64,000 nt of DNA. It comes from Methylobacterium terrae (lineage in GTDB: Bacteria > Pseudomonadota > Alphaproteobacteria > Rhizobiales > Beijerinckiaceae). The notes below the pieces were generated by a model. The model was not told the DNA's origin. It made no database searches and saw nothing but the letters and a program-made list of their open reading frames with translations. The first letter of the stretch is position 1. Each line of letters begins with the position of its first letter. The DNA is taken from the NCBI RefSeq assembly GCF_003173755.1, contig NZ_CP029553.1, forward strand, positions 5,336,001-5,400,000, given 5' to 3'. The position numbers were made by a program, and so were the translations under genes. Below, piece by piece: positions 32,976 through 41,639 of the stretch.

Positions 32976-33035
32976 CTTGCGGAAGCCCGAGCGCCGCGCC
33001 ACCTCCCGGATCACGATGAAGCGAGAGCGTACCGC

Positions 33036-34502
33036 GTGCCGCCCCTGACCGACCTCGCCGCGCGTGCCGGCTCCCTCGCCAAGTCCGTCACCGAGGCCAC
33101 GCGTTCCCTGGCGGAGGCCTCGAACGATCTCCTGGTCCAGCCGACGGTGCGGCTCGGCGTCACCGGCCTCGCCCGCTCCGGCAAGACGGTGTTCACCACC
33201 GCGCTCGTGCACCAGCTCACCGGCCTCCACCCGCTGCCGGCGCTCCGCGCCTCGCAGGAGGGCCGCCTGCGCCGGGCTCGCCTGGTGCCGCAGCCCGACG
33301 ACGCGGTGCCGCGCTTCCCCTACGAGGACCATTTCGCGGCGCTGACGGAGGCGCGGCGCTGGCCGCGCTCGACCGACCGGATCAGCCAGCTGCGCCTCGA
33401 GATCGACTACGAGCGCAAGAGCGGCTGGCGCACCGGTCCCGCGAGCCTGATGGTCGACATCGTCGACTACCCGGGCGAGTGGCTGCTCGACCTCGCGCTG
33501 ATCGAGCAGACCTACGAGGGCTGGTCGCGCGAGACGATCGCCGCCGGCGAGCGCCCCGGCCGGGCCGCGATGGCGGCGCCCTGGTTCGCGTCCCTGCGGG
33601 CGCTCGACCCGAACCAGCCCCTCGACGAGATCGTTGCCGAGCGGGCGAGCGAGGCCTTCACCACCTACCTCGCCGCGGTGCGGGCCGGCCCCGAGGCGGT
33701 GGCGACGACGCCGCCCGGCCGCTTCCTGATGCCCGGCGACCTCGCCGGCTCGCCGGCGCTGACCTTCGCGCCGCTGATCCTGAACGGGCCGGTGAACGCG
33801 GACAGCTTGGGCGGCCTGATGCAGCGCCGCTTCGAGGCCTACAAGCACCGCGTCGTGACGCCGTTCTTCCGCGACCACTTCCAGCGCATCGACCGGCAGA
33901 TCGTCCTCGTCGACGTGCTGGCGGCGGTCGATGCCGGGCCGGCGGCGCTCGCCGAGCTGGAAGAAGCCCTCGACCGGGTGCTGATGAGCCTGCGCGTCGG
34001 GCGCAACAGCCTCCTGTCGCGGTTCTTCGCGCCGCGGGCCGACCGGATCCTGTTCGCCGCCACCAAGGCCGACCACCTCCACCACGCGAGCCACGACCGG
34101 CTCGACGCGCTGCTGCGCCTCCTCGTCGCCCGCTCGCTTCGCCGCACCGAGGCCGCCGGCGCCCATGTCAGCACCCAGGCGCTCGCCTCGGTGCGCTCGA
34201 CCCGCGAGACGGTGGTGCATGACGGGCCGGCCTCGTTCCGGGCGGTGGCCGGCACGCCGGAGGCGGGCGAGAGCATCGACGGCGAGACCTTCGACGGCGA
34301 GACCGAGGCCGCGATCTTCCCCGGCGAGCTGCCCGAGCGGCCCGAGGCCGTCCTGGAAGGGGCGGTGCCGCCGGGATCCTTGCGCTTCCCGCGCTTCCGC
34401 CCGCCGCTCGTCTCGCGCGATGCGCTCGGCCGCCCGGGCCGCCTGCCGCAGATCCGCCTCGACCGCGCCCTGCACTTCCTGATCGGCGACCGCCTCGCCT
34501 GA
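33036..34502 (+). CDS. ycjX: YcjX family GTP-binding protein
   Basis: A 488-residue protein of the YcjX/DUF463 family. The P-loop GLARSGKTVF is at about residues 44-53; further family text includes SLMVDIVDYPGEWLLDL (a G3-like motif) and LFAATKADHLHH (a G4-like motif). In E. coli ycjXF belongs to the phage-shock regulon. The frame starts with GTG. It precedes ycjF by eight bases. PspA and flotillin genes a little downstream strengthen the membrane-stress reading. Confidence 0.93.
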   Translation: MPPLTDLAARAGSLAKSVTEATRSLAEASNDLLVQPTVRLGVTGLARSGKTVFTTALVHQLTGLHPLPALRASQEGRLRRARLVPQPDDAVPRFPYEDHFAALTEARRWPRSTDRISQLRLEIDYERKSGWRTGPASLMVDIVDYPGEWLLDLALIEQTYEGWSRETIAAGERPGRAAMAAPWFASLRALDPNQPLDEIVAERASEAFTTYLAAVRAGPEAVATTPPGRFLMPGDLAGSPALTFAPLILNGPVNADSLGGLMQRRFEAYKHRVVTPFFRDHFQRIDRQIVLVDVLAAVDAGPAALAELEEALDRVLMSLRVGRNSLLSRFFAPRADRILFAATKADHLHHASHDRLDALLRLLVARSLRRTEAAGAHVSTQALASVRSTRETVVHDGPASFRAVAGTPEAGESIDGETFDGETEAAIFPGELPERPEAVLEGAVPPGSLRFPRFRPPLVSRDALGRPGRLPQIRLDRALHFLIGDRLA

Positions 34503-34509
34503 GGGTCTG

Positions 34510-35562
34510 ATGACGAGTCCTCCCCCCCAGAAGCCCCGCGCCTTCCGCCTTCCGCCCGCCGGCACGGAGGCTCCGACCGCCCCGCCGCCCGGCACCGAGA
34601 CGGCGCTCGCCGACGGCATCCGGGTGGTGGAGGAGCCGTTCGAGATCGTCGAGGCCGCCGACGGCGTGCCCGTGCCGGTGGCGCCGCGCTCGCGCGCGCC
34701 TTGGGCGACGCTGCTCCTCTCGGCCCTCGGGGGACTGGCCTCGCTCGGGATCGGCCTCGCGGTCGAGCGGCTGATCGCCGACCTGTTCTCCGCCGCGCCC
34801 TGGCTCGGGATCGTCGCCCTGGTGCTTCTCGCGGTCGCCGTGGTGGCGTTGCTCGCCATCGTCTGGCGCGAGGTGGCGGGGGTGCTCCGCGAGCGCCGCA
34901 TCGAAACCTTGCGCGAGGAGGCCCTCGACGCGCTGCGCTCCCGCGACCACAGCGCCGCCAAGGCGGTGGTGCGCGATCTCTCCGCCCTCTACGCCGGGCG
35001 GCCGGCGGCCGCTGCCGCCCGCGCCCGGCTCGCCGCCCTCGACGACCAGATCCTCGACGTCGAGGACCGGATCGGCATCGCCGAGGCCGAGCTGCTAGCC
35101 TCCCTCGACCGCGCCGCCAAGGCGGCGGTGGCGGAGACCGCCAAGCAGGTCTCCGCCGTGACGGCGCTGAGCCCGCGGGCGATCGTCGATGTCGGCTTCG
35201 TCATCTTCGCGGCGGTCCGGCTCTTGCGCCGCATCGCCACCATCTACGGCGGCCGGCCCGGCCTGTTCGGCTTCCTGCGCCTCGCCCGGGCGGCCCTCGC
35301 CCATCTCGCCGTCACCGGCAGCGTCGCGGTCGGCGACAGCCTGGTGCAGCAGGTCCTGGGACTGGGGGTCGCCGCGCGGATCTCGGCGAAGCTCGGGGAG
35401 GGCGTGCTGAACGGGCTGATGACGGCGCGCTTCGGTCTCGCCGCCCTCGCCGTGTGCCGGCCGCTGCCCTTCACCCGCGAACCACCGCCGCGGCTCGGCG
35501 ACGTGGCGGGAGAGCTGTTGCGGGGCGGGGGCGACGGGGAGGGGCGGGAGGCGACGCGGTAG
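34510..35562 (+). CDS. ycjF: YcjF/TIGR01620 family inner-membrane protein
   Basis: A 350-residue membrane protein. A Pro-rich cytosolic start is followed by two membrane helices (LLLSALGGLASLGIGLAVE and IVALVLLAVAVVALLAIVW) within residues 65-125. The soluble part contains the family block RARLAALDDQILDVEDRIGI and GGRPGLFGFLRLARAALAHL. Its partner is YcjX. Length is typical. The gap to the next promoter is about 90 bases, so the pspA-like operon downstream is separately controlled. Confidence 0.92.
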   Translation: MTSPPPQKPRAFRLPPAGTEAPTAPPPGTETALADGIRVVEEPFEIVEAADGVPVPVAPRSRAPWATLLLSALGGLASLGIGLAVERLIADLFSAAPWLGIVALVLLAVAVVALLAIVWREVAGVLRERRIETLREEALDALRSRDHSAAKAVVRDLSALYAGRPAAAAARARLAALDDQILDVEDRIGIAEAELLASLDRAAKAAVAETAKQVSAVTALSPRAIVDVGFVIFAAVRLLRRIATIYGGRPGLFGFLRLARAALAHLAVTGSVAVGDSLVQQVLGLGVAARISAKLGEGVLNGLMTARFGLAALAVCRPLPFTREPPPRLGDVAGELLRGGGDGEGREATR

Positions 35563-35650
35563 GGCCGACGTGGAGCGAGCCGAGGGACCCCGCACGCCCA
35601 TGGCCGGTGGTCCGGCACGGCCTCCCTCACATCCGGCGGACCTGCTCGGC

Positions 35651-35679
35651 TTGAAAACACCGATTTGGTGTTTTACTCT
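35651..35679 (+). promoter_or_regulatory. Promoter with embedded inverted-repeat operator; leaderless start predicted
   Basis: TTGAAA and TACTCT are 17 bases apart. Between and overlapping them lies AAAACACC-GATTT-GGTGTTTT, an 8-bp perfect inverted repeat (35654-35674), a classic operator position. The ATG of the next gene (35686) is seven bases past the -10 box, where transcription should start, and no Shine-Dalgarno precedes it. The message would therefore be leaderless. The AT-rich text stands out from its surroundings. Confidence 0.6.
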
Positions 35680-35685
35680 TCAGGC

Positions 35686-36825
35686 ATGCCTCGCTCAGGA
35701 GCCTTTCCCTCCCGGCTGACGTACCGGCTCCTGCCCGGGCCCGAGGATCTCCGTGCGGTCCGGGCCCTGCTGGCGGCCTACCGGCGGATGTTCGTCGTCC
35801 TGGCGGAGATCCGGCGCGAGCACGGCCTGCGCGCCAACGTCGTCGCCCTGATCGAGCAGGGCTACCAGCGGGTGCGCGACGAGACGGGGCTGCCGGCCCG
35901 CCTCGTCACCCTGGGGATCCGCGACTTCGCCCGGCAGGCGGCGGACCTCGACCCGGAGCGGGTCACGTCCATGCCGCTCGACGACAAGCTGTTCAGCGTG
36001 AAGAGCGCCTCCGAGATCGCGCTCTCCACGCTCCATGGCCGGCGCACGATGCCCTACCGCGTCGAGGGCTACGACGGCCCGTGGCGCGACCTCGCGAGCG
36101 CCCGCCTCGCGCTCGCGGGCGACGTGCTCACCATCCAGGTGGGCGTCTCCGTCGCCGCACCGAAGGAGGAGACCCGCGTGACCGAGAACATCCTGACCCG
36201 CGTCGGCCGGATCATCGGCGGCCTGTCCAATGCCGCCCTCGACGCGGTGGAGGACCGCGCCCCCCTCGCGGTCGCCGAGCAGGCCCTGCGCGAGATCGAT
36301 GCGGTGATCCAGGACGCCCGGCTCGACCTCGGCAAGGTCAAGGCGGAGGAGCACCGTCTCTCAGCCCGGTGCGGACAGCTCGACGCCGAGCTGTCCGCTC
36401 TGCCCGAGAAGCTGGCCCTGGCGCTCGCGAACGGGCGCGAGGACCTGGCGCGGGCCGGCATCGCGCGGCAGCTCGACCTGGAGAGCCAGATCGAGGCGAT
36501 CGCCTCGAGCCTCGCCGACGTCGCCGAGCGGCACGCGGCGGCCGTCAAGGCGATGCAGGCCGCCACCGCCGCCCGGCGCGACGCCGAGCACCGGATCGCG
36601 CTGCTGCGCCGGCCTCCGGCCAAGGCGGCGGATCCCCTCGACGGCTACGGGAGCGAAGAGGCGGACCGCACCCGCCGGCTCGGGCAGTCGCTGCGGGCGA
36701 TCGACCGGGCGACCGGCACCGCCGCGGCGGTCGCCGACCCCTCGATCGAGGAGCTGGACCGCCTCCACCGCGACGATGCCATCGAGCGGCGGCTCGCCGC
36801 GCTCAAGCAGGGCCGGTCGTCGTGA
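35686..36825 (+). CDS. TnpB-like N-terminal domain fused to PspA/IM30 family protein
   Basis: A 379-residue fusion. Residues 1-164 resemble the N-terminal part of TnpB/OrfB-type proteins: LTYRLLPGPEDLRAVRALLA, then PLDDKLFSVKSASEIALSTL and the strand pair LHGRRTMPYRVEGYDG. The RuvC nuclease half is absent. Residues 165-379 are a PspA/IM30 protein of the YjfJ type (TENILTRVGRIIGGLSNA, then long helices such as ALANGREDLARAGIARQLDL), which binds stressed membranes. A GTG at 36178 with AAGGAGGAG before it could start PspA alone, so two products are possible. The operon promoter sits before the fusion start, which argues that the N-terminal domain is expressed. The TnpB match is inferred by eye. 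Confidence 0.65.
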   Translation: MPRSGAFPSRLTYRLLPGPEDLRAVRALLAAYRRMFVVLAEIRREHGLRANVVALIEQGYQRVRDETGLPARLVTLGIRDFARQAADLDPERVTSMPLDDKLFSVKSASEIALSTLHGRRTMPYRVEGYDGPWRDLASARLALAGDVLTIQVGVSVAAPKEETRVTENILTRVGRIIGGLSNAALDAVEDRAPLAVAEQALREIDAVIQDARLDLGKVKAEEHRLSARCGQLDAELSALPEKLALALANGREDLARAGIARQLDLESQIEAIASSLADVAERHAAAVKAMQAATAARRDAEHRIALLRRPPAKAADPLDGYGSEEADRTRRLGQSLRAIDRATGTAAAVADPSIEELDRLHRDDAIERRLAALKQGRSS

Positions 36826-37490
36826 CCGCGCTGGCGGGCGCGGTTGCCGGCCCGGGCCTGTTCCCCTTCGCCCTCGCGGCGGCGGTGATGGCCGGCCTCG
36901 TCGTGGTCGAGGCGGTCTCGCTCCTCGTCGGGCAATCCCTCTCGGGGCTGGTCGACGGGGCGCTCGGTCACGAGGCGGGTGGCGGCGGCGACCTCGCGAC
37001 CGCGGCGGATGCGGACGGGGCGTTCTCGCCGGCGGCGCTGATGTCCTGGATCAATCTCGGCCGCGTGCCCTTCCTGATCCTCCTGATCCTGGGCCTCGCC
37101 GTCTTCGCGCTCGCGGGCTTCGCCCTCCAGGGCCTCGCCGCCGCGCTGCTCGCCCCCCTGCCGACCCCTGCCGCGGTCGGGCTCGCGGGCGCGGCGACGC
37201 TGCCCGCTCTGCGCGTCGCGACCCGGGCGCTCGCCCGGCTGATCCCGCGGGACGAGAGCTACGCCGTCACCGCCGACGACCTCGTCGGCGCGACCGCGGA
37301 GGTTACCCTCGGTCCCCTCGACGACGGGCTGCCCGGGCAGGTCCGGGCGATGGACCGTCACGGCAACCTCCACCTCCTGCGCGCCCGCGCCGCGTCCGGG
37401 ACGCCGCCGATGCGGACCGGCACCCGCGTCCTGCTCGTGGACCGGGCCGACGCGGTCTACGTCGCGGTCCCGGCGACGCCGGACCTCTGA
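36822..37490 (+). CDS. YqiJ-like OB-fold membrane protein
   Basis: A 222-residue protein with three to four membrane helices (FALAAAVMAGLVVVEAVSL, VPFLILLILGLAVFALAGFA, and ALLAPLPTPAAVGLAGAAT) followed by a C-terminal OB-fold-like domain of the NfeD type (LVGATAEVTLGPLDDGLPGQ, GTRVLLVDRADAVYVAVP). This matches the YqiJ partner of YqiK flotillins. The GTG start overlaps the PspA stop by four bases. It likely helps organise a flotillin membrane domain. Confidence 0.8.
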   Translation: MTALAGAVAGPGLFPFALAAAVMAGLVVVEAVSLLVGQSLSGLVDGALGHEAGGGGDLATAADADGAFSPAALMSWINLGRVPFLILLILGLAVFALAGFALQGLAAALLAPLPTPAAVGLAGAATLPALRVATRALARLIPRDESYAVTADDLVGATAEVTLGPLDDGLPGQVRAMDRHGNLHLLRARAASGTPPMRTGTRVLLVDRADAVYVAVPATPDL

Positions 37491-37525
37491 TCCCTTCGCC
37501 TCCCGCAACCGAGGGAACGCCCCCG

Positions 37526-39223
37526 ATGGACTTGGTCAGTTCCGGTCTCGTCAACCTGCTGGTGATCGCCGGCATCATCGTCGTCGCGCTCATCGGCATC
37601 GGCTTCGTGTTCAGCCGGCTCTACCGGCGCACCACCCGCGACACAGCCTTCGTCCGCACGGGCCTGGGCGGGCGCAAGGTCGTGGTCGACGGCGGCGCGG
37701 TGCTGCTGCCGGTGTTCCACTCCATCGCCATGGTGAACCTCAACACGCTGCGCCTCGAGGTGAAGCGCTCGGGCAACGAGTCGCTCATCACCAAGGACCG
37801 CCTGCGGGCCGACATCACCGTCGAGTTCTACGTCCGGGTCGAGCCCCGCGAGGAATCGATCGCGCTGGCCGCCCAGACGCTCGGCGAGCGGACCAACGAC
37901 GCCATGCTCCTGCGCGAGCTGATCGAGGCGAAGTTCGTCGATGCGCTCCGGGCGGTGGCCGCCGGCATGACCCTGCCCGACCTCCAGGAGAAGCGCGCCG
38001 ACTTCGTGAAGGGCGTGCAGGAGGCGGTCTCGGGCGACCTGCGCCACAACGGCCTCGAGCTCGAATCCGCCTCGCTGACCCGCCTCGACCAGACCTCGAT
38101 CGAGCACTTCAACCCCGACAATTCCTTCGACGCGGAAGGGCTCGCCCGGCTGAAGGAGATCACCGAGCAGCGCCGCAAGGAGCGCAACGCCACCGAGCGC
38201 GACGCCGAGGTGGCCGTCGCCGAGAAGGACCGCGAGACCGCCTTGAAGCAGCTCGAGATCAAGCGCACCACCCGCGAGGCCCAGCTCGCCCAGGAGCGCG
38301 ACATCGCCAACAAGACCGCCGAGACCCGCGCCGAGACCGCCCAGGCCGAGCAGCGCGCCCAGCAGAGCGAGGAGACCGCCCGGATCGAGCGCGAGCAGGC
38401 GGTACGCCTGCGCGAGGCCGAGGCGCGCAAGACCTCGGAGAGCGCCCGGATCGAGGCCGACCTCGCCATCTCTCAGCGCAACGCGGAGGCCGAGCGCGAC
38501 CGCCAGTTGATCCTGCAGGACAACGCCATCAGGATCGCCGAGCGCTCGCAGAAGGAATCGGAGGCCCGCGCCGCCGCCAAGGAGGCGGAGGCCCTGGCGG
38601 TCGCGGCCGAGGAGCGCGTCGCGACGGCGAAGGCCAAGGAGATCGCCGAGCGCGAGCGCGAGATCGCCGTCATCGCGGCCCGCCGCGAGGCGGAGCGGGA
38701 CGCCACCGGGGTCACCGTCACGGCGGAGGCCGAGCGGCGCGCGTCCGAGGACCGGGCCAACGCCATCACCACGCTGGCCGAGGCCGAGGCGACCGCCGCC
38801 GCCTCCAAGGCCGAGGCCATCGCGAGGCTCGGCCAGGCCGAGGCCGAGCGCGAGCGGGTGATGAACGAGGCCCGCAACGCCCTCTCGGCCGAGGCCCGTA
38901 CCTACGAGACCGGCCTGAAGCGCCTCGGCATCATCCCGGAGGCCCTGCGCGAGAGCATGCGGGCGGTGGAGAAGATCGACTCGATCCGCATCTTCGACGC
39001 CGGCGGCCTGATGGGCGGGGGCGCCAACGGCGCCTCCGCGAGCTTCGGCGACAGCCTGTCCGGCCACCTGCTGCGCTACCAGTACAACAGCCCGATCCTC
39101 GGGGCGATCCTGAACGAGGCGGGCTTCGCCGAGGGCAACGGCAGTGTCGACGCACTGGTCGGCACGTTGCGTGGCGCCCGGTCACCGACAGCCAAGGGCG
39201 AGCGGATTGCCGCCGAACCATGA
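37526..39223 (+). CDS. Flotillin family protein, YqiK-like
   Basis: A 565-residue flotillin. One N-terminal membrane helix (LLVIAGIIVVALIGIGFVF) is followed by an SPFH domain (residues about 40-210, with GNESLITKDRLRADITVEFY) and a very long Glu/Ala/Arg heptad region (about 215-480) that forms the coiled-coil staves. The C-terminus is Gly-rich. Flotillins scaffold ordered membrane patches and work with NfeD-type partners, here the YqiJ-like protein 35 bases upstream. PspA in the same operon points to membrane integrity under stress. Confidence 0.93.
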   Translation: MDLVSSGLVNLLVIAGIIVVALIGIGFVFSRLYRRTTRDTAFVRTGLGGRKVVVDGGAVLLPVFHSIAMVNLNTLRLEVKRSGNESLITKDRLRADITVEFYVRVEPREESIALAAQTLGERTNDAMLLRELIEAKFVDALRAVAAGMTLPDLQEKRADFVKGVQEAVSGDLRHNGLELESASLTRLDQTSIEHFNPDNSFDAEGLARLKEITEQRRKERNATERDAEVAVAEKDRETALKQLEIKRTTREAQLAQERDIANKTAETRAETAQAEQRAQQSEETARIEREQAVRLREAEARKTSESARIEADLAISQRNAEAERDRQLILQDNAIRIAERSQKESEARAAAKEAEALAVAAEERVATAKAKEIAEREREIAVIAARREAERDATGVTVTAEAERRASEDRANAITTLAEAEATAAASKAEAIARLGQAEAERERVMNEARNALSAEARTYETGLKRLGIIPEALRESMRAVEKIDSIRIFDAGGLMGGGANGASASFGDSLSGHLLRYQYNSPILGAILNEAGFAEGNGSVDALVGTLRGARSPTAKGERIAAEP

Positions 39224-39389
39224 AGCCACGTCCACCGCATGCCGCCGGCTGGACATGGATGCCCCGGAGCCGGTTTGGCTGGACGAGCCGGCCGGTCCAG
39301 CGGCCCTGCGGGGACGTTCCGGCAGAAACCGGCCCTGGCGCGTCGACCCCTGAGCATCGCTCTTCCACTCGGGGCCGTCGTTCACCCCC

Positions 39390-41639
<2,250 letters not shown>

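Follow-up and report, generated by a model that had tools for sequence, protein, structure and literature searches.

A nuclease-less TnpB-like domain fused to PspA behind a conserved palindrome: a candidate membrane-stress repressor

TnpB is a transposon nuclease and the ancestor of Cas12, and its WED-REC half contacts the guide RNA and reads a short target-adjacent motif. To our knowledge, the proteins that have TnpB as their source, Cas12 and the RNA-guided repressors, all keep RuvC, live or dead. In Escherichia coli, PspA controls its own operon by inhibiting a separate activator, PspF. The binding of PspA to PspF is described in PMC6003685, and TldRs are presented in PMC13418256 as having an inactivated RuvC and using guide RNA. 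According to PMC11237479, more than 98% of PspA homologues vary little, the rest including tandem, NlpC/P60 and PspAA fusions; the word TnpB does not occur in the main text of that source, and no published description of a TnpB-PspA fusion was found in the open literature searched, as judged by titles and abstract openings. Here we describe such a fusion in Methylobacterium terrae (contig NZ_CP029553.1), encoded in a window of 64,000 nucleotides (nt; positions 5,336,001 to 5,400,000 of the forward strand), in which a TnpB-like WED-REC domain and PspA form one gene (35686..36825, forward strand, 379 aa) in front of genes for a YqiJ-like protein and flotillin.

The fused gene is a single open frame of 379 codons running from the ATG at 35686 to the TGA at 36825. 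Position 35651, with which the interval of the original prediction opens, lies in the promoter and outside the gene. The N-terminal domain comprises residues 1–164 (35686..36177, forward strand; regular structure at about residues 9–154) and lacks RuvC, and the PspA_IM30 part (36178..36825, forward strand) has a possible GTG start of its own. PF04012 PspA_IM30 matches residues 168–295 above its cut-off (E 8.5e-11, 42.3 bits, cut-off 33.9), which assigns the fused protein to PspA/IM30; the RuvC-like nuclease domain is missing rather than mutated, and PspA_IM30 begins at residue 168 instead. Structure modeling gave a confident fold for the domain, and the fold search identified it as the WED-REC N-terminal fold of TnpB, the best 48 VIA rows being all TnpB, Fanzor, Cas12 or TranC. 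At the sequence level, the domain profile matches the N-terminal half of one TnpB clade (P0122, which alone numbers 1921 proteins) colinearly over 142 columns and stops just short of RuvC. Residues R64, R72, K101, K106, R119 and Y129 of the domain are conserved. The structural match to TnpB that had been proposed as a check was found, and fold and profile together back a TnpB-like N-terminal half without nuclease. Family databases did not name the domain: residues 1–164 matched no Pfam family at E ≤ 1, and the best NCBIfam match (NF047320, E 0.048) was below cut-off. Pfam and NCBIfam scans of 53 relatives, with the 25 commonest families considered, returned PspA and coiled-coil families as the commonest. 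One candidate identity was DUF2170/YjfI (CesT/Tir), which stands ahead of PspA in other bacteria according to PMC11237479; no direct comparison was made, and the fold search gave TnpB/Cas12. One further protein, P0041 (491 aa, a single record on a 3187-base contig), joins the TnpB-like domain to another C-terminus that contains a hydrophobic segment; no family scored above cut-off for this protein.

A search with residues 1–164 returned 309 proteins at E ≤ 1. PF04012 is present in 115 of the 120 matches listed, a set that includes the window's own protein; those with a name come from Methylobacterium/Methylorubrum, Rhizobium and Bradyrhizobium, among them a PspA/IM30 protein of this type from Methylorubrum extorquens (P0008). 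Genome contigs yielded 144 relatives; the best 79 of these loci all have the same gene order, with domain and PspA in one open reading frame (ORF) followed by YqiJ and then flotillin. The domain is present in 22 of 199 genomes of relatives, in 25 of 397 genomes within the order (fragments in G486 counted) and in 10 of 398 within the phylum, one of these being a true TnpB; among 18 YqiJ loci fetched from other orders of the class, three carry the fusion. The counts rest on ORFs of at least 120 codons whose domain match reached E ≤ 1e-10, giving 125 loci and 107 distinct proteins, window included; this rule left out the broken copies in G068 and G486 and a second copy in G101. The fusion is open without a stop in 106 of the 107 copies, the single interruption (L023) being due to a contig end, and the shortest fused ORF among complete copies has 369 codons. 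Substitutions in the domain fall mostly at third codon positions, and its median ratio of nonsynonymous to synonymous rates (dN/dS) is 0.26 in Methylobacteriaceae (17 rows), 0.11 in Bradyrhizobium (24) and 0.16 in Rhizobium (22), with 80 pairs each. The fusion is old and kept by selection, and the earlier claim of an in-frame fusion, as opposed to random read-through, holds up with the conservation of the frame in relatives. As to the rows used, A1 took 53 of the 120 proteins listed, and A2 drew on 74 of them plus the domain of the window; A3 combined the window with 36 of the 79 loci, and A4 the query P0122 with 27 of 120 TnpBs listed.

Eleven plasmid records also match; the three that were opened contain the three operon genes and the palindrome in differing surroundings. 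Decay was seen in a few genomes: G101 has a decayed second domain copy (L024/L025, G101:C1:6363297-6363596) about 5 kb from the intact one on the opposite strand, G068 (L020) has a domain copy with one TGA and no YqiJ match, and G486 (L187/L188) has domain fragments.

Upstream of the fused start, a -35-like hexamer TTGAAA (35651..35656, forward strand) and a -10-like hexamer TACTCT (35674..35679, forward strand) are separated by a 17-nt spacer, which is overlapped by the palindromic site AAAACACC-N5-GGTGTTTT (35654..35674), the presumed operator. The ATG at 35686, which coincides with the predicted transcription start, begins 7 nt past the last base of TACTCT. The promoter pattern could be fitted to 96 of the 107 loci, the remaining 11 carrying variants; TTGAAA occupies the same place in 63 of the 96, and TATGTT or TACGTT the -10 place in 44. 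Hexamers and inverted repeat are placed as the original prediction described, but the promoter is weak by consensus, TACTCT agreeing with TATAAT at three of six positions.

In general form the dyad consists of two 7-base arms around a spacer of seven bases. It takes in the final three bases of the -35 hexamer as well as the first of the -10 hexamer, and reads AAAGCAC-N7-GTGCTTT in most relatives. Scored as the best dyad of any sequence within 75 nt, which in a few loci (L017, L089) is not the actual site, it is perfect in 72 of 107 loci, with six of seven pairs in 28 and five of seven in 7. Arm positions are complementary in 705 of 749 cells and spacer positions in 86 of 321; these tallies cover all 107 loci, including L017, where the site is misplaced. 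Among the arm pairs, AAAGCAC/GTGCTTT (59 of 107) and AAAACAC/GTGTTTT (12) are the most frequent, and changes in one arm are mirrored in the other in AAAACAC/GTGTTTT, AAAGGAC/GTCCTTT (L175), CAATGAC/GTCATTT (L186) and, at position 5, AAAGTAT/GTACTTT (L251). Among sixteen chosen site types, both sides changed in 10 cells against 2.6 in shuffles, and none of 500 shuffles reached 10; the types were hand-picked, and the counts therefore ignore type frequency. Preservation of the dyad over 107 loci with mirrored changes supports and strengthens the proposal of an operator-bearing promoter. An RNA hairpin in place of a DNA site was rejected, as the palindrome lies upstream of the predicted transcription start and its mismatches include C-A, A-C and A-G besides T-G. 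In L046 and many Bradyrhizobium loci, a conserved block TTGCAACTCATTTGCAACTGCAT with repeated TTGCAACT lies upstream of the palindrome and is a possible second regulator site.

The window's 6.16-Mb genome contains a single instance of the site pattern, which together with the conserved open frame points to more than chance. AAARCACN7GTGYTTT is found in 17 of 199 genomes, exactly once in each, and 14 of these 17 carry the domain, with the site just upstream of it. The other eight domain-bearing genomes comprise seven with variant sites and G068 with its broken copy. Among the 177 domain-less genomes the site is present in three, and no domain-profile match was found in the 3 kb around each of these sites; it was found in none of 30 fetched plain PspA loci, under a pattern that admits either of two letters at several positions. 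G116, from the window's family, groups in the domain tree with G512 from another order and with G448 (support 100/99, long branches), and its site, AAAGGA-N9-TCCTTT, is like that of G512 and unlike the Methylobacterium AAAACAC. Likewise, G204 and G312, members of one family, differ in both domain clade and site. Taken together, site and domain appear to belong together. The flanks, in most loci some 6 kb ahead of the operon and 3 kb past it, were scanned for a linked regulator: no ORF recurred in more than four of 14 representative loci, those four being all Rhizobium or other Rhizobiales, and no further gene accompanies the operon across genera.

YqiJ is present in 22 of the 199 genomes, namely 21 of the 22 domain carriers and G142, which has a plain PspA. 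Apart from the three fusions, the 18 fetched YqiJ loci include seven with plain PspA and eight with no PspA in the stretch. Each of eight readable plain pspA genes, G142 included, stands behind a small ORF that overlaps it or ends at most 32 nt away. This lead gene is probably a regulator, and the domain would then occupy the regulator position of other lineages. In alphaproteobacterial PspA-YqiJ operons lacking the domain, a lead gene of about 170 codons precedes plain pspA in L237, L238, L239, L241, L242, L243 and L215, and the lead genes scanned matched no Pfam or NCBIfam family above cut-off. By eye, other palindromes were seen in two of seven plain-pspA promoters, CATTTGTATACAAATG (L241) and AGTATGCAAATGCATACT (L239).

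The two candidate starts of the fused gene differ in their signals. At the fused start, a Shine-Dalgarno match longer than 4 nt is absent in all 96 counted loci, and the start lies 11–12 nt past the site in 66 of them, the arrangement expected of a leaderless message. By rule, the earliest in-frame start codon following the site was used; this choice may be too early in the 26 loci where it falls at 0–8 nt. These features are consistent with a leaderless transcript. The internal start, GTG 36178 in the window, lies 6 nt behind the Shine-Dalgarno sequence AAGGAGGAG (36163..36171, forward strand). A start codon is found at this place in all 106 counted copies (105 ATG, GTG in the window), L023 having no PspA part owing to the contig-end cut. 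A Shine-Dalgarno match of at least 5 nt precedes it in 100 of 106, against 57% expected from synonymous shuffling and 8 among 382 in-frame ATGs elsewhere; given the relatedness of the sequences, these counts are not independent. The suggestion that PspA alone could be made from here stands as a conserved signal, the product itself being a prediction.

The simplest account of these features is an autorepressor, and regulation by the domain is consistent with them. A TnpB gene fragment encoding the WED-REC half would have been captured in front of pspA to serve as the DNA-binding half of the repressor. Bound as a pair to the palindrome that lies between the -35 and -10 hexamers, two copies would keep the operon off; under membrane stress, the PspA part would be pulled to the membrane or into ESCRT-III-like assemblies, taking the domain off the DNA, and fused PspA, YqiJ and flotillin would be produced. 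The second start, with its strong ribosome site, may supply PspA alone as an effector without DNA binding. As a whole, this reading, with promoter binding by the captured half and membrane sensing by PspA, seems to us somewhat more probable than not, and it suggests that a piece of RNA-guided machinery became a stress-sensing gene switch. The fuller proposal falls a little short of an even call: a target-reading half would have turned into an RNA-free dimeric reader of palindromes, and its fusion to an ESCRT-III-type protein into a one-piece membrane-stress repressor that replaced a ribbon-helix-helix regulator, with the operator co-changing with the domain.

Several observations weigh against the autorepressor. 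TnpB requires guide RNA for DNA binding, and RNA-free binding would therefore be new. An unlinked dimeric regulator would account for the dyad too, and a cis site moves with its gene regardless of what binds it. A promoter scanner found no sigma-70-like sites in 35400-36300, the window promoter being below threshold. Shuffles of the same upstream stretch reach an equal dyad in 5.7% of cases on average, so that a single locus proves little. The dyad is imperfect in 35 of 107 loci, 15 of them through AAAGTAC/GTGCTTT (10) or AAAGCAC/GTACTTT (5), and the site of L017 is worn (AAAACAC/GTATCTT). Two of five measures of mirrored change were not above shuffles (for pairs with both sides changed, 340 of 500 shuffles scored as high; for further pair types, 89 of 500). 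Regarding ancestry, Foldseek E-values are modest (best 2.0e-3, none below 0.001 in PDB), the sequence link is confined to a single TnpB clade, and the domain profile matched no PDB sequence; hhalign against six long ORFs from relatives' TnpB loci gave no match, although these were chosen by length and motif and some may not be TnpB. Finally, seven of the eight small ORFs before plain pspA have an N-terminus like SVPVSVRVSPEDAEFI...TPSDKIRALIKRAR, which we take to have a ribbon-helix-helix look that Pfam does not confirm; a structure model of the small ORF (predicted local distance difference test score 53) was too poor to use.

The strongest rival is that an unlinked host regulator binds the palindrome and that the domain serves PspA otherwise, through RNA binding, nucleoid tethering or protein contacts. 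The established element is the site, with any binder a presumed one, and PspA-YqiJ pairs exist without the domain; however, all 17 site-bearing genomes have the exact site a single time, which is unusual for a global regulator, the site co-occurs with the domain, and site type follows domain clade in G116 and G204, and we regard this rival as unlikely. Alternatively, the domain could keep a guide or scaffold RNA, making the fusion RNA-guided or RNA-regulated in the manner of TldR, as the guide contacts of WED-REC in TnpB would allow. Nuclease-dead TnpBs are indeed presented as RNA-guided repressors in PMC13418256. Against this role, the RuvC half is missing, a guided factor needs no palindrome, the 4-nt overlap with YqiJ leaves little room for a guide at the 3' end of the fused gene, and Rfam gave no match at E ≤ 1 in 33000-39500, a database that need not hold such an RNA; this makes it improbable. 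An older shared fold in place of TnpB descent, or a front half borrowed by TnpB from a host domain, would explain why only one TnpB clade is similar in sequence, but the colinear match that ends before RuvC, the uniform identity of the best fold-search rows and the size of the P0122 clade render it highly improbable. That the domain is chance read-through or a remnant, with only PspA made from the strong internal ribosome site, is scarcely credible given its low dN/dS and third-position changes, the frame open in every complete copy and the confident fold.

Behind the fused gene, the YqiJ-like membrane/OB-fold gene (36822..37490, forward strand; PF21001 E 9e-20, PF07290 E 3.6e-10) starts within its last 4 nt. 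The third gene (37526..39223, forward strand) is named flotillin from the annotation in the three opened plasmid copies, and tblastn matches it behind YqiJ in 79 of 79 loci. Directly upstream of the operon in M. terrae, 33036-35562 holds YcjX (DUF463) and YcjF-like (DUF697) genes, which matched in none of the 79 relatives' loci within the stretch examined; PMC9239133 describes YcjX/YcjF genes likewise adjoining Yersinia psp operons. The window genome also has a second PspA (G000:C1:4461562-4462227) in a 241-codon open frame.

If the autorepressor reading is true, a widespread WED-REC-only descendant of TnpB would show that this half is useful alone, and would offer a compact module for DNA binding, made by nature and available with several specificities (GC, AC, GG, TG and GT at positions 4 and 5 of the arm). 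It would also suggest a mode of control for the Psp response of rhizobia and methylobacteria; in the single genome searched, that of the window, no PspF reached cut-off (nine TIGR02974 matches, none over it). Like TldRs, the fusion is a TnpB descendant without cutting activity that stands beside host genes, here as a likely regulator; in contrast to them, its RuvC is absent with PspA in its place, and its presumed site is a palindrome in its own promoter, with no guide RNA by Rfam. With TnpB/InsQ of IS200/IS605 and with Cas12f it shares the WED-REC fold and, through the P0122 clade, sequence, whereas it lacks RuvC and belongs, together with PspA, to an operon and not to a transposon. The PspA half recalls PspA/IM30 and the E. 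coli PspA-PspF switch; there the activator is a separate protein, while here a DNA-handling fold lies within PspA itself. In its combination of PspA, YqiJ/YuaF and band-7/flotillin, the locus resembles the operons with a CesT/Tir-like partner described in PMC11237479.
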